DNA from: Lishizhenia tianjinensis
GTDB lineage: Bacteria; Bacteroidota; Bacteroidia; Flavobacteriales_D; Crocinitomicaceae
Length of the DNA stretch: 32,455 nt
Assembly (NCBI GenBank): GCA_945863425.1
Contig: CAMBBW010000009.1
Coordinates: 1-32,455, forward strand
Reading direction: 5' to 3'
In this document: positions 1,252 to 31,546 of the stretch, piece after piece
How positions within the stretch are numbered: the stretch's first letter is position 1
Layout of the letters: the number at the start of each line of letters is the position of its first letter
Made by a program: the position numbers and the translations under genes
The notes under the pieces: model-generated
Databases searched by the model: none
What the model saw: only the letters and a program-made list of their open reading frames with translations
Told to the model about the DNA's origin: nothing

Positions 1252-2682
1252 TTAGTGGGTAGTTGTTTCGTTAAAAATAATAATTAGCTTGTCAAGACTT
1301 GGACCAACCAGATCTGCAATGCATTGAGGAAACAATCCGATCCCAACAATGGCAATGGTTAGTAGAATAAATACTAAAATTTCATTCCAACGCAAATCTT
1401 CAAAAGATTCATTTTTAGGTGCACCAAACATACTTAACTGATATGCCCTTAAGGTATACACTGCACCAAATACGAGAGTTGTTGCGCTAAGAATACCTAT
1501 GGCAAAATTAAATTCAGTTAGTTCTTTTAGTAAGGTGAACTCTCCGATAAATCCTGCAGTAAATGGCACCGAGACAGATGCGAACGCAATAATAGCAAAC
1601 CAAAAACCAAATTTAGGAGCTAGGGTAGCAGTACCTTGCATGTGCGATAACTCACGTGTTTTTAATCGTGATTCAAGAATATCTGCTACAAGGAACAATC
1701 CGATGGCGATTAAAGAGTGATTGACAATTTGAACAGATGCTCCAACCAGTGCGTCTTTGGTAAACACCATAATTCCAGCTGCTATTAACCCCAAGTGACT
1801 TATGGAAGCATAAGCAAATAAACGCTTAATATCTTGTTGTTTAATGCAAATAATTGCAGCGTAAATTATACCAATAACACTTAAAATAATTACTAACCAT
1901 TTAATTTCAGCGACTCCTTCGGGAACAAGCGGAATCATCCATTTAATCATTCCGAAAAGTGCCATTTTCAACATTAAGGCTGAAAGTAGCATTGTTCCAG
2001 ACATGGGTGCTGAAGTATAGGTGTCAGGCTGCCAAGTATGAAAAGGGAAAAGTGGAATTTTAATGGCAAATGCAAGAAGAAATCCAGAAATGATCCAGCA
2101 CGCTTCTTTCGTAGGAAGATGAACGGCTAATAAATCAGAATAAGCAAAAGAATTTGCTTTTAAACCTAGTGCAATAAAGGAAAGTAGCATTCCTAATGAT
2201 CCGATAAGTGTATAAATGAAAAATTTCAACAAAACTTTATTCGTTCCTTTTCCAAACCAATACAGGATAAGAAAAACTGGAATAAGCGTAAATTCCCAAA
2301 AAATATAAAATAAGATACCGTCAGCCGCTGTAAATACTCCTAACAAACCGAATTGCATGAAAAATACAAGTGCATGAAAAACACGATTTTCGGAGGTAGC
2401 TGAATTGTTATAATTACTTAAGATAATTATCGGAACGATCAAATTTGTTAGAGCGATCATCATTAAGCCTAATCCGTCATACCCAATTTGAAAAGTTAAT
2501 CCGAATGGCATTTCTGTAGTCTCAAAAATAGATACATATGAACCCGTTTCAAAATTAATTAGATGAATTATTGCAATAGCTGCAGACACAAAGCTACCAG
2601 CCAACCCAAATAGTTTGATACTATTACGGGGAACAAAAAAGGAAATTAATCCTAGGACAACTGTTATAATTAGAAGTTCCAC
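1252..2682 (-). CDS. nuoM: NADH-quinone oxidoreductase subunit M
   Basis: 476 aa, proton-antiporter-like subunit motifs (FYIFWEFTLIPVFLI, FPFHTWQPDTYTSAPMSGTMLLSALMLKM, FAYASISHLG); operon position. Confidence 0.96.
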   Translation of the reverse strand: MELLIITVVLGLISFFVPRNSIKLFGLAGSFVSAAIAIIHLINFETGSYVSIFETTEMPFGLTFQIGYDGLGLMMIALTNLIVPIIILSNYNNSATSENRVFHALVFFMQFGLLGVFTAADGILFYIFWEFTLIPVFLILYWFGKGTNKVLLKFFIYTLIGSLGMLLSFIALGLKANSFAYSDLLAVHLPTKEACWIISGFLLAFAIKIPLFPFHTWQPDTYTSAPMSGTMLLSALMLKMALFGMIKWMIPLVPEGVAEIKWLVIILSVIGIIYAAIICIKQQDIKRLFAYASISHLGLIAAGIMVFTKDALVGASVQIVNHSLIAIGLFLVADILESRLKTRELSHMQGTATLAPKFGFWFAIIAFASVSVPFTAGFIGEFTLLKELTEFNFAIGILSATTLVFGAVYTLRAYQLSMFGAPKNESFEDLRWNEILVFILLTIAIVGIGLFPQCIADLVGPSLDKLIIIFNETTTH

Positions 2683-4604
2683 AGCTTGAAATAAATTAAA
2701 TAATAACTAATTAAACCAACGATTCCCAAAATCATCCAGAAAAAGTAACTCGACAAAATACCCGTTTGAATTTTGCGGATTTGAGAACCTGAAAAACTAA
2801 TCATGTGAGTTAAAAGTCCAATCCCTTTAATTAAAATGCTATTTTCTATGAATGGTAGTACTTTTGATGCTTTCCATTCAACTGATTTCACAAATAAAGC
2901 ATTGTAAATCTCATCAAAATATAATTTTTTTGAGGAAAGTTTTTCCCATCCGGTAAAAGCATGTTCATCCTTGGTTACTTTTTGTTTAGAAACATACATC
3001 CAGTAAGAAATACCAATAATTAAGAATGTAATAACACTTGTTCCAATCATGATTCCAACAGCCGAACTTGTTTCCAAATGGTGTGGATGAATTTTGTCTA
3101 ATCCAAACGTTCCATGATTTAGAAAATGATCCAACCAATGTGCGCCATTTGAAACAATAAAATCAGGTAAATTTAGTGCACCACCAAGTACAGAAAATAT
3201 GGCCAAAACAATCAAAGGTAGTGTCATAACACCCGGACTTTCATGTAAATGTTCTTTCGTGTGATGATCCCCTCTGAATTGTCCAAAAAATACAAGGAAA
3301 TACATTCTGAACATATAAATAGCTGTTAATGAGGCGGACAAAATCAATAAAGAAAAAATTAATGGACTGTGTACAAACCCGGCGGCTAAAATCTCATCTT
3401 TTGAGAAAAAACCTGATAGTAACGGGAATCCAGAAATTGCTAAGGTTCCTAGTAAGAAAACGAGGTGTGTTACAGGCATATATTTCTTTAGTCCACCCAT
3501 TTTTGTGATATCTTGTTCGTGATGATTCGCGTGAATAATGCTACCGGAGCCAAGAAATAACAGTGCTTTGAAGAATGCATGAGTTGTAACATGGAAAATA
3601 GCTACAGTATACGAACCCAATCCAAGCGCAACAAACATTAAACCTAATTGGGATACCGTTGAATAAGCAAGTACTTTTTTAATATCATTTTGACGCATAG
3701 CAATAAATGCAGCAACCAAGGAAGTAGCAAGTCCAATGTATAAGATAATATGTTGCGTATAGGGTGCTAATTCGAATAAGAAATTGGAACGAACAACGAG
3801 GTAAATACCTGCTGTAACCATTGTCGCGGCATGAATTAATGCAGAAACGGGAGTTGGTCCAGCCATTGCATCTGGTAACCAAGTAAATAATGGTATTTGG
3901 GCAGATTTACCAGTAGCGGCAATGAACAAACACAAGGTAATTCCAACAATGGCAACAGAATCAGTGGCAATTGAAAGTGACTTCATTTTTTCAGCAATCA
4001 CAGAAAACTCAAGTGAGCCAAATTGATTGATTAATAAAAAACAACCAATTAACAAACCTAAATCACCTATTCGATTCATTACAAAAGCTTTTCGGGCAGC
4101 CAATGTATTTAGCAATCCTTTTTCTTTGTCGTTATAATGAAAACCAATCAATAGATACGAACAGATTCCAACTCCTTCCCATCCAAAAAAGAGCATGAAA
4201 TAACTGCTACCCAATACCAAAATTAACATGGAGAAGATGAATAAATTCAAATAAGTAAAGAATTTATAAAACCCAGGATCTCCTTTCATATATCCCATTG
4301 AGAATATATGTATTAACGAACCAATACCAGTTATTATCATTGTCATCCAAATCGCAAGTGAATCCACTTGTAATCCGGCATCCAGACTGAAATCAGATAA
4401 TTTTAATAGAGAAAACAAAGGAACATTAACTACGGAATCTAACGAAAGAAAAATGCTGAAAGAAATAACGAATGGTATTGCGACCATAAGAGTGCCAATT
4501 GTTCCAACTACAGTTTCGGACAAATTCTTTCCAATTGTTCCATTTATCAGGCCCCCAATAAGTGGAAAAAGTAAAACGAATAGTATTAAAGTTTCAGTTC
4601 CCAT
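2670..4604 (-). CDS. nuoL: NADH-quinone oxidoreductase subunit L
   Basis: 644 aa; FFGWEGVGICSYLLIGF, PLFTWLPDAMAGPTPVSALIHAATMVTAGIYL and AYSTVSQLGLMF motifs. Confidence 0.97.
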   Translation of the reverse strand: MGTETLILFVLLFPLIGGLINGTIGKNLSETVVGTIGTLMVAIPFVISFSIFLSLDSVVNVPLFSLLKLSDFSLDAGLQVDSLAIWMTMIITGIGSLIHIFSMGYMKGDPGFYKFFTYLNLFIFSMLILVLGSSYFMLFFGWEGVGICSYLLIGFHYNDKEKGLLNTLAARKAFVMNRIGDLGLLIGCFLLINQFGSLEFSVIAEKMKSLSIATDSVAIVGITLCLFIAATGKSAQIPLFTWLPDAMAGPTPVSALIHAATMVTAGIYLVVRSNFLFELAPYTQHIILYIGLATSLVAAFIAMRQNDIKKVLAYSTVSQLGLMFVALGLGSYTVAIFHVTTHAFFKALLFLGSGSIIHANHHEQDITKMGGLKKYMPVTHLVFLLGTLAISGFPLLSGFFSKDEILAAGFVHSPLIFSLLILSASLTAIYMFRMYFLVFFGQFRGDHHTKEHLHESPGVMTLPLIVLAIFSVLGGALNLPDFIVSNGAHWLDHFLNHGTFGLDKIHPHHLETSSAVGIMIGTSVITFLIIGISYWMYVSKQKVTKDEHAFTGWEKLSSKKLYFDEIYNALFVKSVEWKASKVLPFIENSILIKGIGLLTHMISFSGSQIRKIQTGILSSYFFWMILGIVGLISYYLIYFKLWNF

Positions 4605-4607
4605 CGA

Positions 4608-4937
4608 TTACCCTTTTAAATTGTTAAATAAGTCAGCGTCAATATTTCGTTTATTTCTGTAGGCAAGAATTAAAATTGATAATCCTACTGTTGCTTCCGC
4701 TGCTGCAACAACCACGATGAAGAAAACAAAAATTTGCGCATCACCTTGATTGAAATAACTAGAAAATGCAACAAGTAAAAGATTTACAGAGTTTAGCATT
4801 AATTCAATACACATTAACATAACAATCATATTTTTGCGTGTCATCAGTCCGATGGCTCCAATTGAAAATAGAATGGAGGAAAGAATTACGTAGTAATCTA
4901 CTGTTAATCCTTGTGTGATAGATAGAGCTGCTGGCAT
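4608..4937 (-). CDS. nuoK: NADH-quinone oxidoreductase subunit K
   Basis: 109 aa, three TM segments, LMCIELMLNSVNLLLVAFS...AAAEATVGLSILI. Confidence 0.96.
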   Translation of the reverse strand: MPAALSITQGLTVDYYVILSSILFSIGAIGLMTRKNMIVMLMCIELMLNSVNLLLVAFSSYFNQGDAQIFVFFIVVVAAAEATVGLSILILAYRNKRNIDADLFNNLKG

Positions 4938-4939
4938 AA

Positions 4940-5446
4940 TTAATCAATATGTTGTTTTTCTCTTTTGGCAAGCAATACAGCTCCCACCATTGCAGAGATG
5001 AATAAAATCGACGAAATCTCAAAGGGAACAACGTATTTAGAAAACAATAAGGTTCCTAAATTTTCGACCAAACCAACATCACTTTTAACTATGGTATTCG
5101 TAAACGTGATTCCGTCTTTTAATGCTGCCAAGATTACAAGTAGAAGAGCTCCACCAGCAATTACTGCGGTAAACGAAATAGGATGATTTGTTTTTTTTTC
5201 ATCTACTTTATTTAGATTTAGGAGCATTAAAACAAACAGGAAAAGAACCATTATAGCTCCTGCATAAACGATAATATTCACAATTGCAATGAACTGAGCA
5301 TTCATTAATATGAAATGTCCAGAAATAAAGAAGAATGTAATTACTAAATAGAGTACGCTTCTAATTGGGTGTTTACTGAGAATCACCATCAGTGCTGAAC
5401 CGATAGTCATTCCGCCCAAGATAATTGAGATTAGTTCTAATATCAT
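4940..5446 (-). CDS. nuoJ: NADH-quinone oxidoreductase subunit J
   Basis: 168 aa, NIIVYAGAIMVLFLFVLMLLNL signature; operon position. Confidence 0.95.
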   Translation of the reverse strand: MILELISIILGGMTIGSALMVILSKHPIRSVLYLVITFFFISGHFILMNAQFIAIVNIIVYAGAIMVLFLFVLMLLNLNKVDEKKTNHPISFTAVIAGGALLLVILAALKDGITFTNTIVKSDVGLVENLGTLLFSKYVVPFEISSILFISAMVGAVLLAKREKQHID

Positions 5447-5985
5447 ATTGCTCCTCTTTTTCCTGTGTTTTGCCTAAGGCTGATGTCTATTCGATCTTCC
5501 ATTGACTCAACCAATTTATCTTTGCCGTATATAAAATTGGCACGTTCAAATTCGGTTGGAACGATTCTATCTGTTAAGAAAATTGCTTCTTTTGGACAGG
5601 CTTCTTCGCACAATCCGCAAAAAATACATCTCAACATATTAATTTCATAAGTTGAAGCATATTTCTCTTCACGATACAAATTTTCTTCGCCACGTTTTCT
5701 TTCATCTGCCACCATTGTTATTGCCTCAGCCGGACATGCAACTGCGCACAATCCACATGCCGTGCAATTTTCTCTTCCTTCTTCATCGCGTTTAAGTACA
5801 TGTTGTCCTCTATAAACAGGTGCAAAAACACGTATTTCTTCTGGGTATTTGATTGTCTTTTTTCGTGTGAGGATATGTTTCATTGTAATCATCATCCCAC
5901 TAAAAATAGCAGGTAAATACAATTTCTCAATGAATGTCATTGGTTTGTCAGAAACAACTTTTTTCCTATTAGTGAAGCTTTCCAT
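5443..5985 (-). CDS. nuoI: NADH-quinone oxidoreductase subunit I (2x[4Fe-4S])
   Basis: 180 aa with two ferredoxin motifs CTACGLCAVACPAEA and CIFCGLCEEACPKEAI. Confidence 0.96.
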   Translation of the reverse strand: MESFTNRKKVVSDKPMTFIEKLYLPAIFSGMMITMKHILTRKKTIKYPEEIRVFAPVYRGQHVLKRDEEGRENCTACGLCAVACPAEAITMVADERKRGEENLYREEKYASTYEINMLRCIFCGLCEEACPKEAIFLTDRIVPTEFERANFIYGKDKLVESMEDRIDISLRQNTGKRGAI

Positions 5986-5997
5986 TTCTTTTAATTT

Positions 5998-7026
5998 TTA
6001 GAACCAACCTTTGTGAAAGGCGATCACAATAGCTGTAATTAACATATTAATTATGGCGGCTGGAATCAGTGTTTTCCAACCCAAATGCATTAATTGATCA
6101 AATCTAAAACGTGGAATTGTCCAACGAATCCACATGAAAACAAAAATGAACAAAAATGTTTTGGTGAAAAAAGCTAGAACACCCAATATTGCTAGTGTAT
6201 TACCATCAAAGTAATCCATGCCTGGGAAATTGTATCCACCAAAGAAAAGAATAGCCATCAAAGCAGAAGAAATAAACATGGAAACATATTCTGCAAATAA
6301 AAATAAACCCAGTTTCATGGAAGAATATTCTGTATGATAACCACCAACAAGTTCAGATTCACACTCTGCTAAATCAAAAGGAGCTCTGTTTGTTTCAGCG
6401 AGGGAACAAATAAAGAAAATTAAGAAACAAACGGGTTGATAGAAGATATTCCAATTCATGCCATGTTGACTTTTCACGATATCAGTTAAACTTAAACTTC
6501 CTGTTAACAGAATGATCGTTATTAAGGAAATCCCCATTGCTAGTTCATAAGAAATCATTTGGGAGGAAGCCCGTATTGCACCGAAAAGTGAGTACTTATT
6601 ATTGGAAGCCCAACCACCAATCATGATTCCATAAACTCCAATAGAAACAACACCAAAAATGAATAGGATTCCAATGTTAAAATCAGCAATTTGAAGCTCG
6701 ATTTGTCTCCCGAAAATTTCAATCGGCGGACCCCAAGGAATAATTGTACTTGTTATTAATGCCGTAAACATGGAAATTCCTGGACCAATGATAAATAACC
6801 ATTTGTCTGAGTTTTTTGGTATGAAATCTTCTTTCATAAACATTTTTACACCATCAGCAATTGGTTGAAGTAAACCGAATGGTCCAGCTCGATCAGGTCC
6901 AATTCGATCCTGAATCCATGCCGCCAATTTCCGTTCGAAATAAGTAGAATATGCGGCAACACCTAATGATATTAGGAAAACGATAACTACTAGCGAGAAT
7001 TTCTCAATTAAAAGCGCCGTATCCAT
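5998..7026 (-). CDS. nuoH: NADH-quinone oxidoreductase subunit H
   Basis: 342 aa; ERKLAAWIQDRIGPDRAGPFGLLQPIADGVKMFMKEDFIP, AETNRAPFDLAECESELVGGYHTEYSSMKLG, RWTIPRFRFDQLMHLGWK. Confidence 0.97.
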   Translation of the reverse strand: MDTALLIEKFSLVVIVFLISLGVAAYSTYFERKLAAWIQDRIGPDRAGPFGLLQPIADGVKMFMKEDFIPKNSDKWLFIIGPGISMFTALITSTIIPWGPPIEIFGRQIELQIADFNIGILFIFGVVSIGVYGIMIGGWASNNKYSLFGAIRASSQMISYELAMGISLITIILLTGSLSLTDIVKSQHGMNWNIFYQPVCFLIFFICSLAETNRAPFDLAECESELVGGYHTEYSSMKLGLFLFAEYVSMFISSALMAILFFGGYNFPGMDYFDGNTLAILGVLAFFTKTFLFIFVFMWIRWTIPRFRFDQLMHLGWKTLIPAAIINMLITAIVIAFHKGWF

Positions 7027-8006
7027 TATTCAATATTTTTTGTTGACGAATCTATTTTTGTTTCATATTTCCCTTGGGAAATGACAGAATGTCTATCAAC
7101 TACTCTTGGTCCGATTACGTTCCATTTTGCCGTGTCTTTCTTCTCAAATCTACATTCGTTGCAAATCCAACCTGGTTTCCCTTCAATATCTTCTACTTCT
7201 CCGTAAGTATCTTTCCGTGCTGTAACGCGATAAACTTCATTACCGAACATCCATAGAACTACTTTTCCAGAACATTTCGTACAACTGCATTCTGCTTCCA
7301 TCGGTTTTAAAAACCAAACACGACTTTTAAAACGAAATGTTTTATCAGTTAACGCACCAACAGGACAAACATCGATCATATTTCCAGAAAAATCATTATC
7401 GATAGCGTTTTCAATATATGTACTGATTTCAGCATGCTCACCTCTGTTTAAGACACCGTGAACTCTATCTTCCGTTAAATTATTAGCAACATGAACACAT
7501 CGATAACAAAGAATGCATCGATTCATGTGCAATTTAATTGTATCACCAATATCTATTGGGTCAAACGTTCGTTTTTCTTCTTCGTATCTACTTGTTTGGG
7601 AGCCATGTTCGTATCCTCAATCTTGTAAATGACATTCACCTGCTTGATCACATACTGGACAATCTAATGGATGATTCGCTAATAAAAACTCAACAACTCC
7701 ACCGCGATTTTCATGGACTTTTTCGGATGTTTTGTTTTTCACTATCATGCCATCCATCACGTTCGTAGAACAAGAAGCAACCAATTTAGGCATGGGTCTT
7801 GGATCTGCTGTAGATCCAGCAGCAACCTCCACTAGACACGTTCTACATTTACCTCCAGTTCCGGGTAATTTGCTGTAATAACACATCGCAGGTGGAACAA
7901 CCTCACCACCAATTTGTCTGGCGGCATTCAATATTGTAGTACCTGGTTCTACTTCTACCTCAATATTATCTATAGTAACTTTAATCATAACTCCCGATCT
8001 ATGCAC
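7026..8006 (-). pseudogene. nuoG: NADH-quinone oxidoreductase subunit G, short form without the large molybdopterin domain, interrupted by one in-frame TGA at 7617-7619
   Basis: Track ORFs 7617..8006 and 7026..7532 lie in one frame. The join reads ...HPLDCPVCDQAGECHLQD-[TGA]-GYEHGSQTSRYEEEKRTFDPIDIGDTIKLHMNRCILCYRC.... The full span is 327 codons including the TGA and terminal stop. N-terminal 2Fe-2S, HxxxCxxCxxxxxC and CxxCxxC motifs are intact. Labelled pseudogene only because of the stop; function is unresolved. Confidence 0.85.
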
Positions 8007-9381
8007 TTACAGGTTCTTTACTTAACCCAAAGTTTCTTGTTTGTGATTCCTCTTTATTTGTTACGTGCCATTCAAATTCTTCTCTAAAATGATGAATTGC
8101 AGCTGCCACTGGCCAAGCCGCAGCGTCTCCTAATGGACAAATCGTATTTCCTTCAATTTTTTTATTGATTTCTGCTAATAGATCAATATCTCTTAAATTT
8201 CCTTGACCATTTTCCAAACGATAAAGTACTTTTTCCATCCAACTCGTTCCTTCACGACATGGAGAACATTGCCCACAAGACTCATGAGAATAGAATCGTG
8301 CAAAATTCCACGTATTTCGAACAATACATTGATCTTCGTCAAACACAATAAATCCACCTGAACCTAACATAGATCCTGTAGCAAACCCACCGTCAGAAAG
8401 ACTTTCATAGGTCATTAAACGATCTTCACCAGCAGCCGTTTTGGTTACCAAGTAATGAGGTAAAATAGGAACTGATGAACCGCCAGGAATACACGCTTTT
8501 AACTTTTTACCATTGGCCATTCCGCGACAATAATCATCGCCGTATATAAATTCTTCAACCGATAAGCCTAAATCAATTTCATAAACTCCCGGTCGAGCCA
8601 AATTTCCACTTGCTGAAATTAATTTTGTTCCTGTGCTTCGTCCAATTCCAATTTGAGCATAGGCATCGCCTCCATCGTTCACAATTGGAACCACTGCAGC
8701 AATACTTTCAACATTATTTACAACTGTAGGACATCCCCACAATCCTTTTACAGCAGGAAATGGAGGTTTAATTCTTGGATTTCCGCGTTTTCCCTCAAGA
8801 GACTCGATTAATGCTGTTTCTTCGCCACAAATATACGCTCCACCACCAGGCATAACGCGCAGGTCTAAGTCATAGCCAGAACCCAAAATGTTTTTCCCAA
8901 GATATCCTTGAGCATATGCTTCGGCAATTGCCTTTTCTAAAATATCGAGAATCCACATGAATTCGCCACGAATATAAATAAATGATAAATTACATCCTAA
9001 AGCATAGCTTGATGTAATCATTCCTTCAATTAATAAGTGTGGAAGGTACTCCATTAAATACCGATCCTTGAATGTTCCAGGTTCAGATTCATCTGCGTTA
9101 CAAACCAAATAACGAGGAACGCCCTCTGGTTTTGCTAAAAAAGACCACTTCATTCCGGTTGGAAATCCTGCGCCTCCTCTTCCACGTAAACCTGATTTTT
9201 TTACTTCTTCAACGACATCATCGGGTGACATCGTTTTAATCGCTTTATCAACGGATCGATAACCACCATTTTTTCTGTAGACATCAAAAGTTTCGATGCC
9301 CGGAATATTGACTTGTTCTATTAGTAATTTTCTTCCTTTCATATACTTAGGATTCAAATTGGCCTGATCGATAGGCATCAA
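7999..9381 (-). CDS. nuoF: NADH-quinone oxidoreductase subunit F
   Basis: 460 aa; GLRGRGGAGFPTGMKW, CNADESEPGTFKDR, GGGAYICGEETALIESLEGKRGNPR, ESCGQCSPCREG. Confidence 0.97.
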   Translation of the reverse strand: MMPIDQANLNPKYMKGRKLLIEQVNIPGIETFDVYRKNGGYRSVDKAIKTMSPDDVVEEVKKSGLRGRGGAGFPTGMKWSFLAKPEGVPRYLVCNADESEPGTFKDRYLMEYLPHLLIEGMITSSYALGCNLSFIYIRGEFMWILDILEKAIAEAYAQGYLGKNILGSGYDLDLRVMPGGGAYICGEETALIESLEGKRGNPRIKPPFPAVKGLWGCPTVVNNVESIAAVVPIVNDGGDAYAQIGIGRSTGTKLISASGNLARPGVYEIDLGLSVEEFIYGDDYCRGMANGKKLKACIPGGSSVPILPHYLVTKTAAGEDRLMTYESLSDGGFATGSMLGSGGFIVFDEDQCIVRNTWNFARFYSHESCGQCSPCREGTSWMEKVLYRLENGQGNLRDIDLLAEINKKIEGNTICPLGDAAAWPVAAAIHHFREEFEWHVTNKEESQTRNFGLSKEPVSA

Positions 9382-9880
9382 TTAGTTCATCAACTTTATC
9401 TTTCGTTAAAAACTCATGGTTTTTAAAGCGGCATTGTAGCATGGGTCCATACCCACAAGCACCTAAACATTCTGCGGTTTTCAAGGTGAACATACCGTCT
9501 TGAGTTGTTTCACCCACTTTAATGTTCAATTTATTTTCAATGTGCGAAATAATATCATCACTTCCCACCAACATACATGGTCCAGTTCTACAAACTTCAA
9601 AAACATGCTTACCAACGGGATCTAAATGGAACATGGTATAAAAGGTTGCTACCTCATACACTTCAATCGGTTGAATTTTTAATAATTCCGCCACATAATC
9701 CATTGTTTCTATACTCAGCCACCCAAATTCAATTTGAGCAAGGTGTAACACTCGAATCAACGCACTCTTATGCTTCCCCTCAGGAACATGGGTCATTAAT
9801 TCATTTACTTTTGCCAAAGATTCAGGACTTAATTCCCTTTTCTCTGCGTGTCGTTTATTCCAATCAACGTGTAATTTCAT
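9347..9880 (-). CDS. nuoE: NADH-quinone oxidoreductase subunit E (2Fe-2S)
   Basis: 177 aa; VATFYTMFHLDPVGKHVFEVCRTGPCMLVGSDD, AECLGACGYGPMLQ. Confidence 0.96.
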   Translation of the reverse strand: MKLHVDWNKRHAEKRELSPESLAKVNELMTHVPEGKHKSALIRVLHLAQIEFGWLSIETMDYVAELLKIQPIEVYEVATFYTMFHLDPVGKHVFEVCRTGPCMLVGSDDIISHIENKLNIKVGETTQDGMFTLKTAECLGACGYGPMLQCRFKNHEFLTKDKVDELIDAYRSGQFES

Positions 9881-9883
9881 AAT

Positions 9884-11110
9884 CTATGCGTCTAATTCAC
9901 CTGCAATCACGTTCATACTACTCAATGTGAGTACTGCATCACTTATTGTCATTCCTTTAATCATTTCAGGATATGCTTGGTAATATATAAAACAAGGCCT
10001 TCTAAATTGTAAACGGTACGGGTTTCTTCCACCATCACTAATAAGGTAATAACCCAACTCACCGTTTCCACCTTCCACGGCATGATAAACTTCACCAGCT
10101 GGAATGTGCGTTTCGCCCATAACAATCTTGAAATGATAGATTAAGGCTTCCATTTGATTATAGACTTCAGCCTTTGGTGGTAAGAAAAATTCCGGTAAAT
10201 CAGCTTTGTACGAGCCTTCCGGTAGATTTGAATAAGCTTGTTGAATGATTCTCATACTTTGACGGATTTCTTCTTGACGGACCATAAAACGGTCGTAAGT
10301 ATCGCCATTAACCCCAACAGGAATGATAAAATCAAAATCTTCGTAGGAGGAATAGGGTTGAGCAACTCGTACATCGTAATCAACACCAGCTGCGCGAAGA
10401 TTTGGACCTGTAAAAGAATAGTTTAGCGCTCTTTCTGCTGAAATAGGTCCAGCGCCTTTCGTACGATCCATAAAAATTCGATTCCGTTCAAGCATAGAAT
10501 TGAATTCTTCAAAAGCAGGAGGGAAGGTTTTTAAGAAGGATTTTAATTTGGTATGAAATGTTTCATTAAAATCGCGTTCGAAACCACCAATTCTACCAAT
10601 GTTAGTTGTTAAACGAGCACCACAAATTTCCTCATACAACTCATAAATCTTCTCTCGTTCTGTAAAAGGGTAGAAAAAACTTGTCAATGCCCCAGCATCA
10701 ACTCCAACAACTGAATCACAAATTAAATGATCAGCAATTCGCGCCAATTCCATAATAATGACACGCATGTATTGAACTCTTTTTGGGATTTCTGCCCCAA
10801 TAAGTTTCTCAACTGTCATTTCCCACCCAATATTATTAATAGGGGAGGAGCAGTAATTCAAGCGGTCTGTAATTGGAGTTATTTGGTTGTATGGCCTTCT
10901 TTCTGCCAATTTTTCAAATGCACGATGAATATATCCAACGGTTTGTTCAGCAGAAACAATTTTTTCACCATCTACTTGTAACACGTTCTGAAAAATTCCA
11001 TGTGTTGAAGGGTGAGTGGGTCCAAAATTTATGGTAGCTATTTCTCCGTCAATTGTATCTTTTGACAGATCGGTTAGCTGGTTTTCTTTATATTTTTCTT
11101 TAGCTTCCAT
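9884..11110 (-). CDS. nuoD: NADH-quinone oxidoreductase subunit D
   Basis: 408 aa; NFGPTHPSTHGIFQNVLQVDGE, GYIHRAFEKLAE, DRLNYCSSPINN. Confidence 0.97.
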   Translation of the reverse strand: MEAKEKYKENQLTDLSKDTIDGEIATINFGPTHPSTHGIFQNVLQVDGEKIVSAEQTVGYIHRAFEKLAERRPYNQITPITDRLNYCSSPINNIGWEMTVEKLIGAEIPKRVQYMRVIIMELARIADHLICDSVVGVDAGALTSFFYPFTEREKIYELYEEICGARLTTNIGRIGGFERDFNETFHTKLKSFLKTFPPAFEEFNSMLERNRIFMDRTKGAGPISAERALNYSFTGPNLRAAGVDYDVRVAQPYSSYEDFDFIIPVGVNGDTYDRFMVRQEEIRQSMRIIQQAYSNLPEGSYKADLPEFFLPPKAEVYNQMEALIYHFKIVMGETHIPAGEVYHAVEGGNGELGYYLISDGGRNPYRLQFRRPCFIYYQAYPEMIKGMTISDAVLTLSSMNVIAGELDA

Positions 11111-11115
11111 ATGAT

Positions 11116-11625
11116 TTAAAATCTTCCAAAAAAGCGATCATCTTTATCCTCACGTGTCTCATCCTCCAAATGGAATTCTTTTCGCATGGGAAAATAGTCC
11201 ATTGAATCTTCATTTAATATTCTACGTAAATCAGGGTGTCCGGTGAAATTTACGCCAAAGAAATCATAGCTTTCACGCTCCATCCAATTAGCTCCATTGT
11301 ATATGGGAACTATAGTTGCAATGGAAGGATTTGAGATTGGTAGAAATGCTTTTAACCGTAAACGGAAATTATTTCTCCAACTATGCAATTGATACACAAC
11401 CACCATTTCTCGATTCGTGTCTTTTGGATAATGAATCGCTGCAATATTGGTTAGGAAATCACATTGTAAAACAGTATCGTTTTTCAACCATTCAATAATC
11501 TCGTAGGATTTTGAAGGAGTTATTTCCAGCGTTAGTAAACCAAAAGGCTCCTCATTGGAAAGAATATCGGCTTCGAAAAATTCATTGAGCCTTTTCAATA
11601 CCTGTTCATTACTTATCGCGCTCAT
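11116..11625 (-). CDS. nuoC: NADH-quinone oxidoreductase subunit C
   Basis: 169 aa; ANWMERESYDFFGVNFTGHPDLRRIL...YFPMRKEF. Confidence 0.95.
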   Translation of the reverse strand: MSAISNEQVLKRLNEFFEADILSNEEPFGLLTLEITPSKSYEIIEWLKNDTVLQCDFLTNIAAIHYPKDTNREMVVVYQLHSWRNNFRLRLKAFLPISNPSIATIVPIYNGANWMERESYDFFGVNFTGHPDLRRILNEDSMDYFPMRKEFHLEDETREDKDDRFFGRF

Positions 11626-12163
11626 CTGTAATATCGATTTGGTAAGTTTTCAATAAGTCTTTATACTCATCACTGTATCGGCGTCTCATAGATTCCAATT
11701 TCACCAGTTTGTGAATATTAATTACTCCATCAATTATTTGCTCAGGTCGAGGAGGACATCCAGGAACATAAACATCAACGGGAATAATTCGATCAATTCC
11801 TTGTAAAACACTGTATGTATCAAATATACCTCCTGAAGAAGCACATGCGCCAACGGATAGAACCCATTTAGGCTCAGCCATTTGTTCATATATTTGTTTC
11901 AATACAGGTCCTAATTTTTTAGATATTGTTCCGGCAACGATTAATAAGTCAGCCTGACGTGGCGTAAACGACATACGTTCCATACCAAATCGGGACATAT
12001 CATAGGTACTTCCCATGGTGGCCATAAACTCAATTCCACAACAAGATGTGGCAAATGGAAGTGGCCAAACTGAATTAGCACGAGCCAAACCTATGGCCTT
12101 ATCGAGGGTTGTCAATTGATACCCTTCACCATTGATTACTTTTAAATCTTCTATTTTTCCCAT
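11609..12163 (-). CDS. nuoB: NADH-quinone oxidoreductase subunit B
   Basis: 184 aa; SVWPLPFATSCCGIEFMA, MSFTPRQADLLIVAGTISKK, VGACASSGG, YVPGCPPRPEQIIDG. Confidence 0.97.
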   Translation of the reverse strand: MGKIEDLKVINGEGYQLTTLDKAIGLARANSVWPLPFATSCCGIEFMATMGSTYDMSRFGMERMSFTPRQADLLIVAGTISKKLGPVLKQIYEQMAEPKWVLSVGACASSGGIFDTYSVLQGIDRIIPVDVYVPGCPPRPEQIIDGVINIHKLVKLESMRRRYSDEYKDLLKTYQIDITDERDK

Positions 12164-12525
12164 TCTAATGCACCTTTTTTGTATACGTAGAAAAATCCGA
12201 TAAGGAAGAACGCTACAAACATAATAACAGCTAATAATCCTTCTAGTTCAAGTTTGTTGAAATTTACAGCGTAAGGGTAAAAGAAAATAACCTCCACATC
12301 AAATAGAACAAACAAAATTGCAGTCATAAAATAGCGAATTGAAACGGGGAATCGAGCATTACCTTGAACTTCTATTCCACATTCAAAATTAGCATCCTTC
12401 TTTTTTGATTTCAGACGCGGCATTAATATATGGGTAACAAATAGCGTGAAAACTACGAATCCACCGGCCACAATCATCTGAAGAAGTAATGGAAGGTAAT
12501 CAATAGTAGATGAAGATGTATTCAT
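12151..12525 (-). CDS. nuoA: NADH-quinone oxidoreductase subunit A
   Basis: 124 aa; FECGIEVQGNARFPVSIRYFMTAILFVLFDVEVIFFYPYAV. Confidence 0.96.
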   Translation of the reverse strand: MNTSSSTIDYLPLLLQMIVAGGFVVFTLFVTHILMPRLKSKKKDANFECGIEVQGNARFPVSIRYFMTAILFVLFDVEVIFFYPYAVNFNKLELEGLLAVIMFVAFFLIGFFYVYKKGALEWEK

Positions 12526-12765: not shown

Positions 12766-13143
12766 TTATTGTCCATTCAAACAAGCTTTAACCTTCGCTT
12801 GATGAGCTGCTCTATCATTCGGTTTTTTGGATTGTAAATCAGTTAAGAAAAGTTTGCATTTTTTCTCAACTTCATCTGCTCGAAGTAATAATTTTTCCGT
12901 TTCCTTATCCGACAGTGTACTTTTTTTTAACACTTTGTCTAATGAATCATTTTTTCTGACACAATCACAAAAATCCCATTGAGCACCATATTTCTTTTCG
13001 ATTCGATCTTGATTCTCGGTATGATTTGAGTTTGAAGTAGCGTTTTTTTCATTAGTACTTCCAACACTTTTGGGTAAAGCATTATCGGTAGATTCGCAGG
13101 AAAGTAAAAATAGAGCAGTGAAAACAGAAAAAAGTTTTCTCAT
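12766..13143 (-). CDS. Small hypothetical lipoprotein
   Basis: 125 aa with signal peptide and lipobox (FTALFLLSC); no family recognised. Confidence 0.75.
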   Translation of the reverse strand: MRKLFSVFTALFLLSCESTDNALPKSVGSTNEKNATSNSNHTENQDRIEKKYGAQWDFCDCVRKNDSLDKVLKKSTLSDKETEKLLLRADEVEKKCKLFLTDLQSKKPNDRAAHQAKVKACLNGQ

Positions 13144-23286: not shown

Positions 23287-24585
23287 ATGGTTCTCCAACG
23301 AATTAAAAATATGAAGAATAGTGATTTCATAAAATCACTCACTGTTCTTTTGACGGGTACATTAATCGCTCAAGCAATTGGGTATCTTTTAGCACCTATA
23401 TTAACTAGACTTTACACACCATCCGAAATAGGTGAATTGGGATTTTATTTGCGTTTAACAGGTTTTTTATCGGCAATAGCAACATTAAGGTATGAATTAG
23501 CTATTCCGCTACCCAAAAATCATGGTCATTCTTATTTATTGTATCGACTTTCATTGATGATTTCAATAATCATTTTGTGTTTTATTTTTCTCATATTAGG
23601 TGGAATACTTTTTTCAGGTTATTCTATCGGAATGGAATTGTGGTATTTGATAATGGTTATTTTGGGTGCCGCATTTACAGTTGTCATTAATCTTGGAACT
23701 AATTGGTCGGTTAGAATGGGTTCTTTCTCTGTTATCTCAAGGCAAAAAATTGTAAATTCATTCTTGTCCAATGGTCTTAAATGGTTTTTTGCACTTTTTT
23801 CATGGAGTTATTTTGGATTGATTCTTTCAACCTTAATAGGATTAATGGTTTCTTCAATTGAAATAATATTCAATTTCAAAAAAATAAAAGAAAAATTCAA
23901 GCATTTCAGGTCTTCTAGAAAAACTAGATTTTTAATGAAAAACCACATTGAATTTCCTTTAGTTAATTTGCCCCATGTTATTATCGATAATGGCAGGGAT
24001 ATGTTGGTTGCATCTCTTATTTTTACTCATTTTTCGAGTAGTATCTACGGTTCTTTTAGTCATTCATATAATATGCTGCGCATCCCTATGATGTTGGTTG
24101 GCGTATCGCTAAGTCAGCTTTTTTATAACCAAGTAGTAAAGAAATACAATAATAATGAACCAATTCTACCACTATTTACGAAGATAATTGGCTTTTTAAC
24201 TTTATTGAGCATTGTGCCATTTACAACATTATATTTTTATGGTGAAACTATTTTTAGTTGGGTTTTTGGAGCTCCGTGGGCTTTATCTGGACGTTACTCA
24301 GAAACAATGTCTTTCTGGTTACTGGTTAATTTTATTCTTTCACCAATTTCTTCTTTGCCTCTCATTATTGGTATTCAGCGATTAGCATTTGTTTTTGGAA
24401 TAATTAGTGCGCTTATTCAGGTAATTCCCTTGTGGTTAATTCCCCACTTTTATGGGAATTCAGAACCCATTTTTGCATTGTCACTGCAAATAATTTCTTA
24501 TTCTCAAGCAGTTTGGTTGATGTTTTGTGTCGTTTTCTATTCTATTTTTGTTTATAAAAACGATCTGAGATTAAAAAATGAATAA
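23287..24585 (+). CDS. Oligosaccharide flippase family protein (Wzx/MOP-like)
   Basis: Polytopic; SLTVLLTGTLIAQAIGYLLAPILTRLYTPSEIGELGFYLRLTGFLSAIATLRYELAIPLP. Track start 23278 is TTG; ATG 23287 or 23311 is more likely. Confidence 0.88.
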   Translation: MVLQRIKNMKNSDFIKSLTVLLTGTLIAQAIGYLLAPILTRLYTPSEIGELGFYLRLTGFLSAIATLRYELAIPLPKNHGHSYLLYRLSLMISIIILCFIFLILGGILFSGYSIGMELWYLIMVILGAAFTVVINLGTNWSVRMGSFSVISRQKIVNSFLSNGLKWFFALFSWSYFGLILSTLIGLMVSSIEIIFNFKKIKEKFKHFRSSRKTRFLMKNHIEFPLVNLPHVIIDNGRDMLVASLIFTHFSSSIYGSFSHSYNMLRIPMMLVGVSLSQLFYNQVVKKYNNNEPILPLFTKIIGFLTLLSIVPFTTLYFYGETIFSWVFGAPWALSGRYSETMSFWLLVNFILSPISSLPLIIGIQRLAFVFGIISALIQVIPLWLIPHFYGNSEPIFALSLQIISYSQAVWLMFCVVFYSIFVYKNDLRLKNE

Positions 24586-25867
24586 TCATAAATCCTCATT
24601 TATTTTACTAGAAGCAAACTCAATTAAGGCCGAGAAAATGGACGGCATACTTCTTTTTGTAACCTTATTTTCTATTTTATTTGTTCCTAGTATTCGAATA
24701 CATAGCGGGTTGTTTTTAGGGATAGAAGAACTGCTTATCGTAATTATGGGATTAAGATTATGCTTGGTTCGCTGGTATTTAATAGATCGCTTCGTACTTA
24801 TTTTAATGGCGATGGCAAGTATTATTTTGATTTCAATTTTTGCTAACCCCAATTGCAAGGACTATCGCGAGTATTTGGAAATACATAAATTGGCTAAAAT
24901 TGGGGTGGTTTATCTTTTTACTATTTTTTTTCTCCGAACTAATTTACGCTATCATTCGCTGGTCAAGTGGATTAATTTTTGTTTTTTAGGTTTAGTACTA
25001 TTTAATATCTTTCATTTGTTTAATCTGTTTTATTTCAATGAGATAATTACAATATTATATGATACGGATGGAAGAGATGTTTTGAGTTTTGGAAAAAACT
25101 CGTTAGGAGGCCCTGGTCCAAAGCGCATAGTTGGTACAATGGGGAATCCAAATATAAATGGGATATTATTTCTTTTTTTCTTTGCTTTTTATTCCTTTTT
25201 GTTGATTGAACTGAAAAATAAGGAAAGCAATTGGAATTTGTTAACACATACGAGACTTAAAATTCTCTTTTTGACAAGTATTCTGTTTGTTATTTTGTGC
25301 CAATCTCGAACGGATATCGGAGTATTGGTTGTCCTCTATGTTCTCGGGGTTTTATGGAGAAAGGCTACCGCATTGGAAGTTGTGTTTGAAATTAGTTGTA
25401 CGTGTTTGTTTTTTGGTTTATCAGCATTTCTTGATACAATTGCATTGCAATATTTATTCAATACAAAACCCCAAATTCACGAGAATAATTCCTTTGCTGC
25501 TAGGATAAAAGTTTGGGTTAGTTTGATTCACCAATGGATGGAGAATCCGATTTTTGGTTATGGTCCCAACAAGGCATATATGTATCGTGAAAAGCTATAT
25601 CCTGAAAATGAATATGTCTTTTATCTTTGGAGATATGGGATACAAGGAGTACTTTTATATCTATCCTTATTATTGACGCCTATTTTTTCATTTTATAAAA
25701 GAATAAGTCATTTTCGTTTTCTAAGTATGATAATAATTATTATTGCCTCAGTGGCTTTCATGAATAACCCAATGTCTAATGCTAAAATTAGTATGCTAGT
25801 GGCATTTGTTTTTGGATTATCTCTCGTAATTTTGGAAAACATGGACACTCAAAAAAATCGCACATGA
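24578..25867 (+). CDS. O-antigen polymerase (Wzy)-like membrane protein
   Basis: 429 aa, polytopic; late HQWMENPIFGYGPNKAYMYREKLYPENEYVFYLWRYGIQGVLLYLSL resembles Wzy_C-type proteins. Confidence 0.8.
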   Translation: MNNHKSSFILLEANSIKAEKMDGILLFVTLFSILFVPSIRIHSGLFLGIEELLIVIMGLRLCLVRWYLIDRFVLILMAMASIILISIFANPNCKDYREYLEIHKLAKIGVVYLFTIFFLRTNLRYHSLVKWINFCFLGLVLFNIFHLFNLFYFNEIITILYDTDGRDVLSFGKNSLGGPGPKRIVGTMGNPNINGILFLFFFAFYSFLLIELKNKESNWNLLTHTRLKILFLTSILFVILCQSRTDIGVLVVLYVLGVLWRKATALEVVFEISCTCLFFGLSAFLDTIALQYLFNTKPQIHENNSFAARIKVWVSLIHQWMENPIFGYGPNKAYMYREKLYPENEYVFYLWRYGIQGVLLYLSLLLTPIFSFYKRISHFRFLSMIIIIIASVAFMNNPMSNAKISMLVAFVFGLSLVILENMDTQKNRT

Positions 25868-26439
25868 TTAATCGAATTTGGCAAGGATTACAATACCGAT
25901 TAGCTAAGCTTTTATTTGTCTTCACTCGACCCCGAATGTTGTCCAAAACAATCAATTTTCAGGGACTTAAAGTGCAAGGTGTTCGTATTGGAAATACAAC
26001 TTTTATTGATAACCCAAAGCAATTAAAGGTTGAAGATCATGTTTACATTGGGCATCATAATTATATAGAAGCAAGCAATGGAATCCAATTGGGTAAAGGT
26101 TGTCAAATTACTTCTTTTGTAAGCATAACAACTCATTCTAGTCATCAATCAATAAGGTTGTATGGATCTTCATATGCGAAACACAATGATCATATTGGAT
26201 ATATCAAAGGATCAGTCGCCATTGGGGATTTTTCTTTTGTGGGGCCATTTACGGTAATTATGCCCAATACAACAATCGGAAAAGGATCCCTGATAGCTGC
26301 GCATTCCTATGTGAAAGGTGAATTTCCGGATTTTTCAATTATTGCGGGTAATCCAGCTGTTGTAACAGGAGATGTTCGTGATAAAGATAACAAATGGTTA
26401 ACTGAATTTCAGGAATTGAATCAAACTTATATGAAGTAA
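25864..26439 (+). CDS. Left-handed beta-helix acyltransferase (sugar O-acetyltransferase-like)
   Basis: 191 aa; hexapeptide repeats (VEDHVYIGHHNYIEASNGIQLGKGCQITSFVSI; VAIGDFSFVGPFTVIMPNTTIGKGSLIAAHSYV) and IIAGNPAVV. Confidence 0.87.
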   Translation: MINRIWQGLQYRLAKLLFVFTRPRMLSKTINFQGLKVQGVRIGNTTFIDNPKQLKVEDHVYIGHHNYIEASNGIQLGKGCQITSFVSITTHSSHQSIRLYGSSYAKHNDHIGYIKGSVAIGDFSFVGPFTVIMPNTTIGKGSLIAAHSYVKGEFPDFSIIAGNPAVVTGDVRDKDNKWLTEFQELNQTYMK

Positions 26440-26442
26440 AGC

Positions 26443-27480
26443 ATGAATAAGCTATTGGTAATAGGTTCAAATTCAGTGCACACCTTCAATTTTATTGAAT
26501 TAGTTTCAATTCATTTTGATGATGTTTTATTGATTACAAATGAACGGAATCAAGAAAAAAAAGTAAGACAGGAAATAGTAAGTTTTAATTTAAAACTCTC
26601 TTCACTATTTATCTCACCGTCCAAAATTCGTCGGATTGTTATAGAATATAATCCAACTATTGTTCACGTTCATCAAGCCAATAGTTATGCTCTTTATGCT
26701 GCCTTGGCTATAGGAAAACGAGCAAACACCGTCCTTACAGCTTGGGGAAGCGATATCTTTATTTTGCCAAAAAAGAATTTTTTTTGGGGAAAATTTGTGC
26801 GTTTTTATATTAATAAATTTAATTATTTCACCGCTGATTCAATTAACCTAGCTGAAGAGTTGAAGGAATTATTAGTCGAATCAAAAGAGGTTTTAGTCGC
26901 AAACTTTGGAATTGAACTTTTTCAGATTGAAAAAGAAAAAGAGAATTTATTCTACTCAAATAGATTGCATAAACCTTTGTATCGAGTCGCAACTATTATT
27001 TATTCTTTTCATACGTTTCGCTTAAAAAATTCAACTACTGATTGGCGTTTAGTTATTGGTGCGACTGGAACCGAAACAGAAAATCTCAAGAAAATTGTAC
27101 GAGAACTTCATTTGGGAGATTCAGTTGAATTTATTGGATGGGTTGATTCTGAAACAAATCGTAATTGGTATGCGCGGTCTACATTTTGGATTTCAATTCC
27201 CGAATCTGATGCAACTAGTATAAGTTTATTAGAGGCAATGGCCTATGGTTGCATACCAATTTTATCTGATCTTCCTTCAAACCGCGAATGGATAAAAGAT
27301 AAAATCAATGGAAGTATTGTTGCCGAATTAGATGCCGATTTTTTAACACCAGCATTTGATTTAGATCGAGAAAAGGTCAGGTCAATGAATCAAATCATTA
27401 TTCAAAAAGACGGAACAAAAGAGGCGAATCGAAAAAAATTTATTTCTCTTTATGAAAAAATAATTAATTCTCAATTATGA
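26443..27480 (+). CDS. Glycosyltransferase, GT4-like
   Basis: 345 aa; VHVHQANSYALYAALAIGKRANTVLTAWGSDIFILPKK and C-terminal ESDATSISLLEAMAYGCIPILSDLPSNREW. Confidence 0.87.
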   Translation: MNKLLVIGSNSVHTFNFIELVSIHFDDVLLITNERNQEKKVRQEIVSFNLKLSSLFISPSKIRRIVIEYNPTIVHVHQANSYALYAALAIGKRANTVLTAWGSDIFILPKKNFFWGKFVRFYINKFNYFTADSINLAEELKELLVESKEVLVANFGIELFQIEKEKENLFYSNRLHKPLYRVATIIYSFHTFRLKNSTTDWRLVIGATGTETENLKKIVRELHLGDSVEFIGWVDSETNRNWYARSTFWISIPESDATSISLLEAMAYGCIPILSDLPSNREWIKDKINGSIVAELDADFLTPAFDLDREKVRSMNQIIIQKDGTKEANRKKFISLYEKIINSQL

Positions 27481-28583
27481 AAATCTGCCATATTACAACC
27501 GTTCATCCTGATGGAGATGTACGTATTTTTCATAAGATGTGTGTTAGTCTTGCAACGAGTAATGATTTTCAGGTAAGTTGTATTGTTCCAAATTGTGAAA
27601 CACGAGTTGAAAGTGGTGTCAATATCATTAGTTTTTCTTTGGATGCTCAAAATAGAAGTTCCCGTATACGCCTGGCTTCTAAAAAAGCTTTAGGTCTCGC
27701 TATAAAGCAAGATGCTGATATATACCATTTACATGATCCTGAATTACTGACAATTGCCTTAAAGTTGAAAAAAAAAACAGGTGCGCGCGTTATTTTTGAT
27801 TCGCATGAAGATGTCCCAAAGCAATTAATGGATAAAATTTGGATACCAAGCTATCAACGGGTTTTAATTTCCAAACTTTATGCTATTTATGAACGTTTCG
27901 TTTGTTCCAGATTGGATGGTGTCATTTCAGTAACTCCTCTAATTTGCAATAGATTTAGAAAATTTCAGCCCAATGTTGAAATGATTGCAAATTATCCTGA
28001 TTTATTGGAGCTCAACATTTTAGAAAAAAATAGGTTCTCAAGAACAATTTGCTATGTTGGTGGGATTTTTCGAACTCGAGGAATCATAGAGCTAGTTAAT
28101 GCAATCGATAAAATAGAGGTTAGGTTACTACTGGCAGGGACTTTTGAATCTGATGAATTAAAAGAAACTGTAATGAATTTACCAGGTTGGGAAAATGTTC
28201 AATTTTTTGGACAAGTAAGTCGAACTGAAATAGCGTCAATTTTGAATCAAAGTGAAATTGGGATTGTTACTCTACATCCAACACAAAGTTATGTTGAGGC
28301 ATATCCAATTAAAATGTTTGAATACATGGCTTCGGGCACAGCCGTTTTAGCAAGTGATTTTCCGCTCTGGAGAGAAATCATTTTTCAGTCAAACTGCGGA
28401 AAATGCGTTGACCCAATGGATGTTAGTGCTGTAAGGGCTTCATTAATTGAAATGCTTGAAAATTCAACAGTAACCAGAAATCAAGGTAAAAATGGACTTT
28501 TGGCAGCGAAAAACATTTATAATTGGGAGAAGGAATTTATTAAATTAAAAGCATTTTATTCAGGTTTTGCTCAACATAGATGA
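27477..28583 (+). CDS. Glycosyltransferase, GT4 family
   Basis: 368 aa; YHLHDPELLTIALKLKKKTGARVIFDSHEDVPKQ, YVGGIFRTRGI, YPIKMFEYMASGTAVLASDFPLWREI. Confidence 0.9.
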   Translation: MKICHITTVHPDGDVRIFHKMCVSLATSNDFQVSCIVPNCETRVESGVNIISFSLDAQNRSSRIRLASKKALGLAIKQDADIYHLHDPELLTIALKLKKKTGARVIFDSHEDVPKQLMDKIWIPSYQRVLISKLYAIYERFVCSRLDGVISVTPLICNRFRKFQPNVEMIANYPDLLELNILEKNRFSRTICYVGGIFRTRGIIELVNAIDKIEVRLLLAGTFESDELKETVMNLPGWENVQFFGQVSRTEIASILNQSEIGIVTLHPTQSYVEAYPIKMFEYMASGTAVLASDFPLWREIIFQSNCGKCVDPMDVSAVRASLIEMLENSTVTRNQGKNGLLAAKNIYNWEKEFIKLKAFYSGFAQHR

Positions 28584-28679
28584 AAAATTGTTAATCTAAA
28601 AATTGGTTGATTTGAGCAATGATAAAATATGAATAGTCAAAAAAGTATTTATTTCGAAGTGTTACCTTAACTTAACCTT

Positions 28680-28687
28680 TATCTTCG
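28680..28687 (+). promoter_or_regulatory. Candidate -7-like element (TATCTTCG) upstream of the O-antigen ligase-like gene
   Basis: One mismatch to TAnnTTTG, 5 bp before ATG 28693, in the longest gap within this part of the cluster. Confidence 0.3.
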
Positions 28688-28692
28688 TATTC

Positions 28693-29916
28693 ATGAAAAG
28701 TTTCATCCGCTCGATTGGTTTGTTAGAAATTGCCATTTTGATAAATGCGGCTGCAATTGTTTTTATGCACTTGTTTCCTTTTGCCTTACTTGTATTAGTG
28801 ATTGCATGGTTGAGGGAATGTTGGATTCGAAAAGAAAAAGGTTCACTTATTCCAACTAGAAATTTTTATTACGCTTTAATTCCCTTCGGACTGACTTTAT
28901 TTGGTCTTGTTTACACGTCAAATTTTAAGCAAGGTATGGGAGATTTAGGTAGAATGATGCCTTATTTCATTTTTCCGATTACCCTATTTTCAATGGAGAA
29001 AAATCGGTTAAAAACAATTGAGCCAAAGGTAATTGCCTTTTTCGTTTCAGGTCTTGTTTTACGTTTTTTAATGGATTTGTATGCTTCCACAATTCGTTTT
29101 TTGAATGGTGGAAATATTAACGATTTCTTTTATGCCTATCTCGATTCAGACACGAATATTTTTTCAGTATTGACGCTTTTGGGAATTTTATTAGTTATTG
29201 ATTGTAGGATTAATCGGAATGCCATTCTTTCACGTACTAAATTACTTGGATATTTTAGCGTTATTTTCTTTTTAACGGTTGGTTTATTGCTCTTGCAAAG
29301 TCGTATCGTGATCGTTTGTTTCTACCTTGCTTTAGCCGCGTCTTTTCTCTATTATTGGAATCGTAAAAACAAGTTTGATGTCCTCCTAGTTGGTGCTTTT
29401 TGTTCATTACTTCTTCTATTTCCTGTTTTTCAAGGAAGGTTTCAAGTAGTGTCAAAAGAAACGATTCAATTAGGCAAAAAGGATATGTCTGTCACCAGAA
29501 AAGATACCTTATCCATGAATTGTATGTCTTCTACTTCTCTTCGATTGAATGCGGTAAAAACAAGTGTGTTAATTTTGAAACAACATCCAATATTGGGAGT
29601 TGGTACAGGAGATTGGCGCGATGAAATGTTTTCAATTTATAACCAAGAAAAAATGCCGTGTAACGCAAAAGAACATACTGCACCACATAATCAGTATCTC
29701 AGAATTGGAGTAAAGAATGGATTTTTTGGAATTCTCATATATTTCTTTTTCATATTCATACTGCTTAAAAAGCTAGTCAAATATAATCGGATGGGGCAAT
29801 TTCCATTTTTCCTGTCGCTCGTTTTGTGTGGATTTGGATACGATATTCTTGATGTGGGATCATCTGCTCCTGTTTTTGCATTTTTTTCAACTTGGCTATT
29901 TTTCACAAAAGATTAA
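28693..29916 (+). CDS. O-antigen ligase family (Wzy_C) membrane protein
   Basis: 407 aa, polytopic; LKQHPILGVGTGDWRDEMFSIYNQ...TAPHNQYLRIGVKNGFFGILIYF. Confidence 0.86.
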   Translation: MKSFIRSIGLLEIAILINAAAIVFMHLFPFALLVLVIAWLRECWIRKEKGSLIPTRNFYYALIPFGLTLFGLVYTSNFKQGMGDLGRMMPYFIFPITLFSMEKNRLKTIEPKVIAFFVSGLVLRFLMDLYASTIRFLNGGNINDFFYAYLDSDTNIFSVLTLLGILLVIDCRINRNAILSRTKLLGYFSVIFFLTVGLLLLQSRIVIVCFYLALAASFLYYWNRKNKFDVLLVGAFCSLLLLFPVFQGRFQVVSKETIQLGKKDMSVTRKDTLSMNCMSSTSLRLNAVKTSVLILKQHPILGVGTGDWRDEMFSIYNQEKMPCNAKEHTAPHNQYLRIGVKNGFFGILIYFFFIFILLKKLVKYNRMGQFPFFLSLVLCGFGYDILDVGSSAPVFAFFSTWLFFTKD

Positions 29917-30020
29917 TGACGTTACAACTAAATACCTCATATTATCCTTCGCAAGGTTTTGCTTTTACTCTTTTGAGCGAAAGTTTATTTCTAAGAATAT
30001 AATCAGTATTTATTTTACCT

Positions 30021-30028
30021 TAAATTTG
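30021..30028 (+). promoter_or_regulatory. Candidate -7 element (TAAATTTG) upstream of the GT2 gene
   Basis: Exact TAnnTTTG match, 22 bp before ATG 30051. Confidence 0.4.
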
Positions 30029-30050
30029 TTGACTTATCAGGAAAGTTTTT

Positions 30051-31070: not shown

Positions 31071-31384
31071 TATTCCTTTCTCTAACCTTATTATTCGATA
31101 AATTTCAACTCGATTCCCTCCAAAGTTTTAAAGCATTGGCAATGGAAAAACCTTTGTTATTGGGGGTTGATGGCGAGGCGCGAAATCATTTTATAACGAA
31201 AGCTCAAGCTGGGCTATTTTTTGAGCCAGAAAATGCTAATGAATTAGCAAAACAAGTTCGGTTATTGTCAGAAAATCCTGAAATGATCGTGAAAATGGGG
31301 AAGAATGCTCGGAAATACGTGGGTGAGTTTTTTAATCGGGATATATTAGCACAATCATTCCAAAAACAACTCAACGATTTGTAA
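31067..31384 (+). pseudogene. Remnant of a GT4 glycosyltransferase (C-terminal fragment)
   Basis: 105-aa ORF with KALAMEKPLLLGVDGEARNHFITKAQAGLFFEPENANELAKQVRLLSENPEMIVKMGKNARKYV, the C-terminal part of GT4 enzymes of the WbuB-like type. Most of the protein is absent; IPSK reads in a different frame just upstream of a T run. Confidence 0.78.
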
Positions 31385-31546
31385 AGAAATGAATTTGTAT
31401 TGTGCACTTTGTATCATGATTAAGTTGAGGTATTTGTTTCATCCCTAGTTATTACTGTTTTTTCTTATTTATTTTAACCATACAAACAAAAGTCATTTTT
31501 TTGCAACTTTTGAATGCCCAATTTTGCTATTATTTAAATAAATACT

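Follow-up and report, generated by a model that had tools for sequence, protein, structure and literature searches.

The complex I of Bacteroidota carries a short form of NuoG (Nqo3), and the copy described here shares its frame, its length of about 320 residues, its domains and its operon position with those of the sister genome and of Fluviicola/Crocinitomicaceae (81 to 98% identity to the aligned Crocinitomicaceae copies). The NuoG of E. coli has a large C-terminal domain, which is missing from this protein and its relatives, and the nearest solved structures are those of complex I 75-kDa subunits and bacterial NuoG/Nqo3. From the short-form NuoG of Bacteroidota our copy differs by one codon, a TGA in place of leucine. 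Conserved genes with an in-frame UGA are also known from UGA recoding, either as selenocysteine or in codes that read UGA as glycine or tryptophan. A second likeness is to the sporadic internal-stop pseudogenes of draft genomes (PMC11017572), with which it shares a lone stop, absent from close relatives, in a gene that is constrained and in other respects intact. Cooley and Wright (2024, PMC11017572) showed that internal stops frequently arise from errors of assembly and follow its overall accuracy; in that study they were often artefacts of coverage, sequencing platform or assembler, and the material comprised RefSeq assemblies and reassemblies but no metagenome-assembled genomes, whereas the genome studied here looks like one.

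The window, i.e., the whole stretch of 32,455 nucleotides analyzed, is contig 9 of a fragmented draft in 239 contigs (85.76% complete, 2.52% contamination). The source organism is an uncultured freshwater-type bacterium, and its closest named relatives are Crocinitomicaceae/Fluviicola drafts. For comparison, nuoG was sought in sixty related genomes and in a further eighty contigs; the closest genome among those compared, a species of the same genus (G029), is called the sister below.

An interrupted nuoG frame in the nuo operon

Direct reading of the minus-strand frame 7988-7026 gives MIKVTIDN...CHLQD*GYEHGSQ...KNIE*, without indel or frameshift and open but for the TGA at 7619-7617, the one departure from the uninterrupted reading frame expected of NuoG/Nqo3 (Table 1). 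The original prediction, that the two NuoG-like ORFs are a single frame with no frameshift between them, was thus confirmed, and its count of 28 NuoG-like codons between the TGA and the TTG opening the second ORF proved exact, all of them being ordinary NuoG sequence. Both halves match the NuoG model TIGR01973 (E values of 2.8e-39 and 1.1e-40) and are contiguous on it, the first stopping at model position 107 and the second resuming at 112. Because both halves are strong NuoG matches and the sister holds the same frame without the stop, this stop is more than a chance reading of the frame. The domain order of NuoG/Nqo3 (Fer2, NADH-G_4Fe-4S_3, Fer4_Nqo3) is present, with PF13510 and PF10588 before the stop and PF22117 after it, and the uninterrupted sister gene carries all three. 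The TGA lies past the cysteine ligands of the NADH-G_4Fe-4S_3 region and ahead of Fer4_Nqo3, and no cluster motif is damaged on either side of it, which for the downstream motifs had been predicted. We rejected the idea that the short protein is itself a truncation, since the relatives are equally short (open frames in the genus mostly have 323-341 residues).

Table 1 Features of nuoG and its operon in the window
Feature	Position	Strand	Remarks
nuoG, short form, 320 residues	7026..7988	-	Contiguous frame with a single in-frame TGA; TIGR01973 matches in both halves
nuoG 5' part: Fer2 and start of NADH-G_4Fe-4S_3 with HxxxC..C.....C ligand motif	7620..7988	-	PF13510; PF10588 positions 1-28 of 40
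In-frame TGA, codon 124 of 321	7617..7619	-	Every other nuoG examined has leucine here; the nearest uses TTA
nuoG 3' part: Fer4_Nqo3 and C-terminal tail	7026..7616	-	PF22117; pN/pS 0.023, constraint as in rest of operon
TTG, ORF-finder start of second piece	7530..7532	-	Unsupported as start; internal coding sequence in all relatives
Rest of nuo operon, nuoA to nuoM	1252..12525	-	Neither internal stops nor indels relative to the sister

The TTG is codon 153, and the first in-frame ATG after the stop is codon 155, 31 codons downstream. No Shine-Dalgarno-like stretch precedes either codon, the sister reads straight through the region of codons 153-155, and no split nuoG was found among the relatives examined. 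The caution in the original prediction that the TTG is not evidence of a real start is therefore well placed, given the missing Shine-Dalgarno-like stretch and the internal coding sequence that relatives have there.

As expected of NuoG/Nqo3, the gene sits between nuoF and nuoH in a nuoA-N operon, and the ATG of nuoH overlaps its stop codon. The further claim that every other complex I gene looks complete held for nuoA to nuoM in the comparison with the sister; nuoN (1250-3), whose frame is open and runs off the contig end, cannot be judged. After nuoA, a small predicted lipoprotein-like gene (12766-13143) is by far the most divergent shared gene, with 71.7% nucleotide identity to the sister and compensating small indels. 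Synteny with the sister stops at about 23373. The remainder of the window (23374-32455) is a polysaccharide-type cluster of flippase-like, O-antigen ligase-like, acyltransferase and glycosyltransferase-like ORFs, in which a single 250-base match to the sister is left, as expected for a variable surface-sugar locus.

The TGA site in relatives and constraint on nuoG

An alignment of relatives' NuoG across the site, proposed as a check in the original prediction, gave leucine in all 105 other nuoG loci with a readable site, encoded by TTA (41), CTC (25), CTG (13), CTT (12), TTG (10) or CTA (4). No stop was found there in any readable locus of the sixty genomes and eighty contigs; TGA is present only in the window's own sequence. 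The sister's NuoG, 98% identical in protein and uninterrupted, has TTA at the site, so that one T-to-G change explains the stop. Between the two genes 69 codons differ, 64 of them synonymously. All four replacements lie after the stop and none before it, an imbalance that is not significant (Fisher p = 0.31), and all four are at positions that vary in the family. The sequence matches the sister at 94.3% of nucleotides before the stop and 91.7% after it, which led us to reject a chimeric join at the TGA site.

We then compared constraint across the operon. The pN/pS of nuoG against the sister is 0.020, equal to that of nuoD, nuoH, nuoI and nuoJ, and 0.023 in the part after the stop. At family columns conserved to 95%, the stop aside, the window's nuoG departs only where the sister departs as well. 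Relaxed selection after the stop, which would mark a decayed pseudogene downstream of its lesion, is thus not seen: the pN/pS stays low and no change at a conserved column is private to this gene. Hence nuoG has worked as a full-length gene up to the present, or continues to do so. A second nuoG was not found in the available 86% of the genome, and a redundant copy that would make the stop harmless was rejected on that ground; nqrF was not found in the same 86% either. With neither a second nuoG nor nqrF found, loss of NuoG would probably be costly.

Some of the comparison material has peculiarities of its own. Another genome of the genus (G023) holds two full-length nuoG matches (G023:C21:24352-25302 and G023:C12:26736-27686), which could reflect either a duplicated gene or a bin that mixes two strains. 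Bacteroidota-type nuoG is also present in records titled Glaciecola amylolytica (L054, CP034120.1) and Candidatus Kuenenia (L060, CALPRR020000108.1), the former with a site motif identical to that of Fluviicola chungangensis (L052); these may be wrong record names or mixed bins.

Other internal stops and the decoding of UGA

A survey of about 1.08 Mb of the window's genome against 1.62 Mb of the sister covered 499 genes, or about 175,000 codons. None of the 499 contains a frameshift against the sister, and clear mid-gene stops in long genes number two: the TGA for leucine in nuoG, and a TGA for glycine (GGA in the sister) at codon 175 (L246:10114-10116) of the gene at L246:9592-10557 (G000:C1:29592-30557). 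From its sequence, we take this second gene to be fmt, encoding methionyl-tRNA formyltransferase. The other listed stops are near ORF ends, mostly through an over-extended start codon, or in short ORFs whose coding status is doubtful; the same survey of the sister gave a frame disruption in one long gene and some stops in short ORFs. In fmt, nucleotide identity to the sister is 92% before the stop and 78% after it, and given this lower identity the fmt case may differ from that of nuoG. Of 35 matched relatives, one shows a stop in its best fmt match (a single TAA in the distant genome G044). About 4.9% of random substitutions in the compared genes would create a stop; by this arithmetic one or two stops would arise from roughly 20-40 wrong bases across about 525 kb, a rate that seems plausible for such a draft.

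The genome was also examined for signs of recoding, including the suppressor tRNA and release factor 2 that the original prediction had named as checks. The release factor 2 gene, prfB, is intact: it has no internal stop and scores 490.5 bits where the cut-off is 370. TGA terminates 110 of 650 ORFs in the window's genome and 227 of 1285 in the sister, about 17% in each. None of the 29 tRNAs found in this 86% complete genome has a UCA anticodon or reads UGA by Watson-Crick pairing. A selenoprotein would need SelA as well as a SECIS-like stem-loop downstream of the UGA. The search for SelA was negative, its absence from an 86% complete genome being no proof, and no stem-loop follows the TGA (fold z-scores of -0.33 and 0.16, no better than shuffled sequence). 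No Rfam element scores above threshold, and one sub-threshold Histone3 match (17.3 bits against a gathering score of 34) was treated as chance. In contrast to known UGA recoding, then, this genome yielded no SelA and no matching tRNA, keeps release factor 2 and uses TGA as a normal stop, and the residue expected at the nuoG site is leucine, not Cys/Sec, Gly or Trp. An alternative code would place the same residue at several in-frame TGAs; the two sporadic TGAs stand at two different residues, leucine in nuoG and glycine in fmt, which disfavors recoding. Neither recoding nor an alternative code thus finds support in release factor 2, tRNAs, SelA, TGA usage or structure after the stop.

Explanations of the TGA

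Of the four causes offered in the original prediction, an error and a recent nonsense mutation are supported by the relatives and the genome-level checks, while reinitiation and readthrough are not. Judging from sequence, the nuoG TGA is probably (with a probability of about 0.62) a technical artefact of the consensus, arising from base calling, assembly or a mixture of strains. A single-base consensus defect in a fragmented draft would have turned a leucine codon (the sister's TTA) into TGA; the cells would hold a sense codon, and the organism would make an ordinary full-length NuoG. In favor of this reading are the invariant leucine, the one-base difference, the constraint on both sides and the isolation of the stop within its operon, as well as the absence of recoding machinery from the sequence examined, the incompleteness and fragmentation of the source draft, and the second sporadic mid-gene TGA in fmt, likewise a gene expected to be kept. 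Further support comes from the modest number of wrong bases (20-40) that one or two stops require and from the published finding that internal stops are frequently errors of assembly. However, with no frameshift in 499 genes the assembly is not grossly bad, T-to-G is also an ordinary mutation, and the published survey of internal stops (PMC11017572) did not cover metagenome-assembled genomes.

Alternatively, the TGA may be a genuine nonsense mutation that arose very recently in the population sampled, which we regard as possible but clearly less probable than an artefact. NuoG would then end after 123 residues, complex I would be lost or impaired, and nuoH may suffer from polarity. Such a mutation needs a single step and could be too recent for other decay to show, and it is tempting to read the placement of all four replacements after the stop in the same way, but these are at family-variable positions and their imbalance is not significant. 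The probable cost of the loss, with no second nuoG or nqrF found in 86% of the genome, and the intact and constrained remaining nuo genes also argue against it.

Readthrough or recoding, in which a tRNA decodes the UGA so that the gene yields full-length NuoG just as it stands, is very improbable: normal constraint downstream and the position of the stop at an invariant leucine of a conserved gene speak for it, but release factor 2 is intact, TGA ends about 17% of ORFs, no UCA tRNA (among 29), SelA, structure after the TGA or Rfam element was found, the fmt TGA stands for glycine, and no relative has a TGA at the site. Least probable of all is a two-piece NuoG, in which termination is followed by internal reinitiation and the N- and C-terminal proteins assemble, since the stop, although it falls between the last cysteine of HxxxC..C.....C and Fer4_Nqo3 and leaves the ligand motifs whole in each piece, cuts PF10588 at position 28 of 40, the nearest starts (TTG 153, ATG 155) are about 30 codons on without a ribosome-binding-like stretch, and no relative has a split nuoG. 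Even taken together, readthrough and a two-piece NuoG are unlikely and without positive support, and we give very little credence to a TGA that is real in cells and yet compatible with a working complex I, through either efficient UGA readthrough or a two-piece NuoG.

The nuoG TGA is a single isolated base, and an ordinary one. Should cells carry and tolerate it, they would offer an unusual example of UGA readthrough or of a NuoG in two parts; as it stands, its main value is as a caution: before a lone internal stop in a draft is taken for loss of function or recoding, the gene should be compared with those of close relatives.
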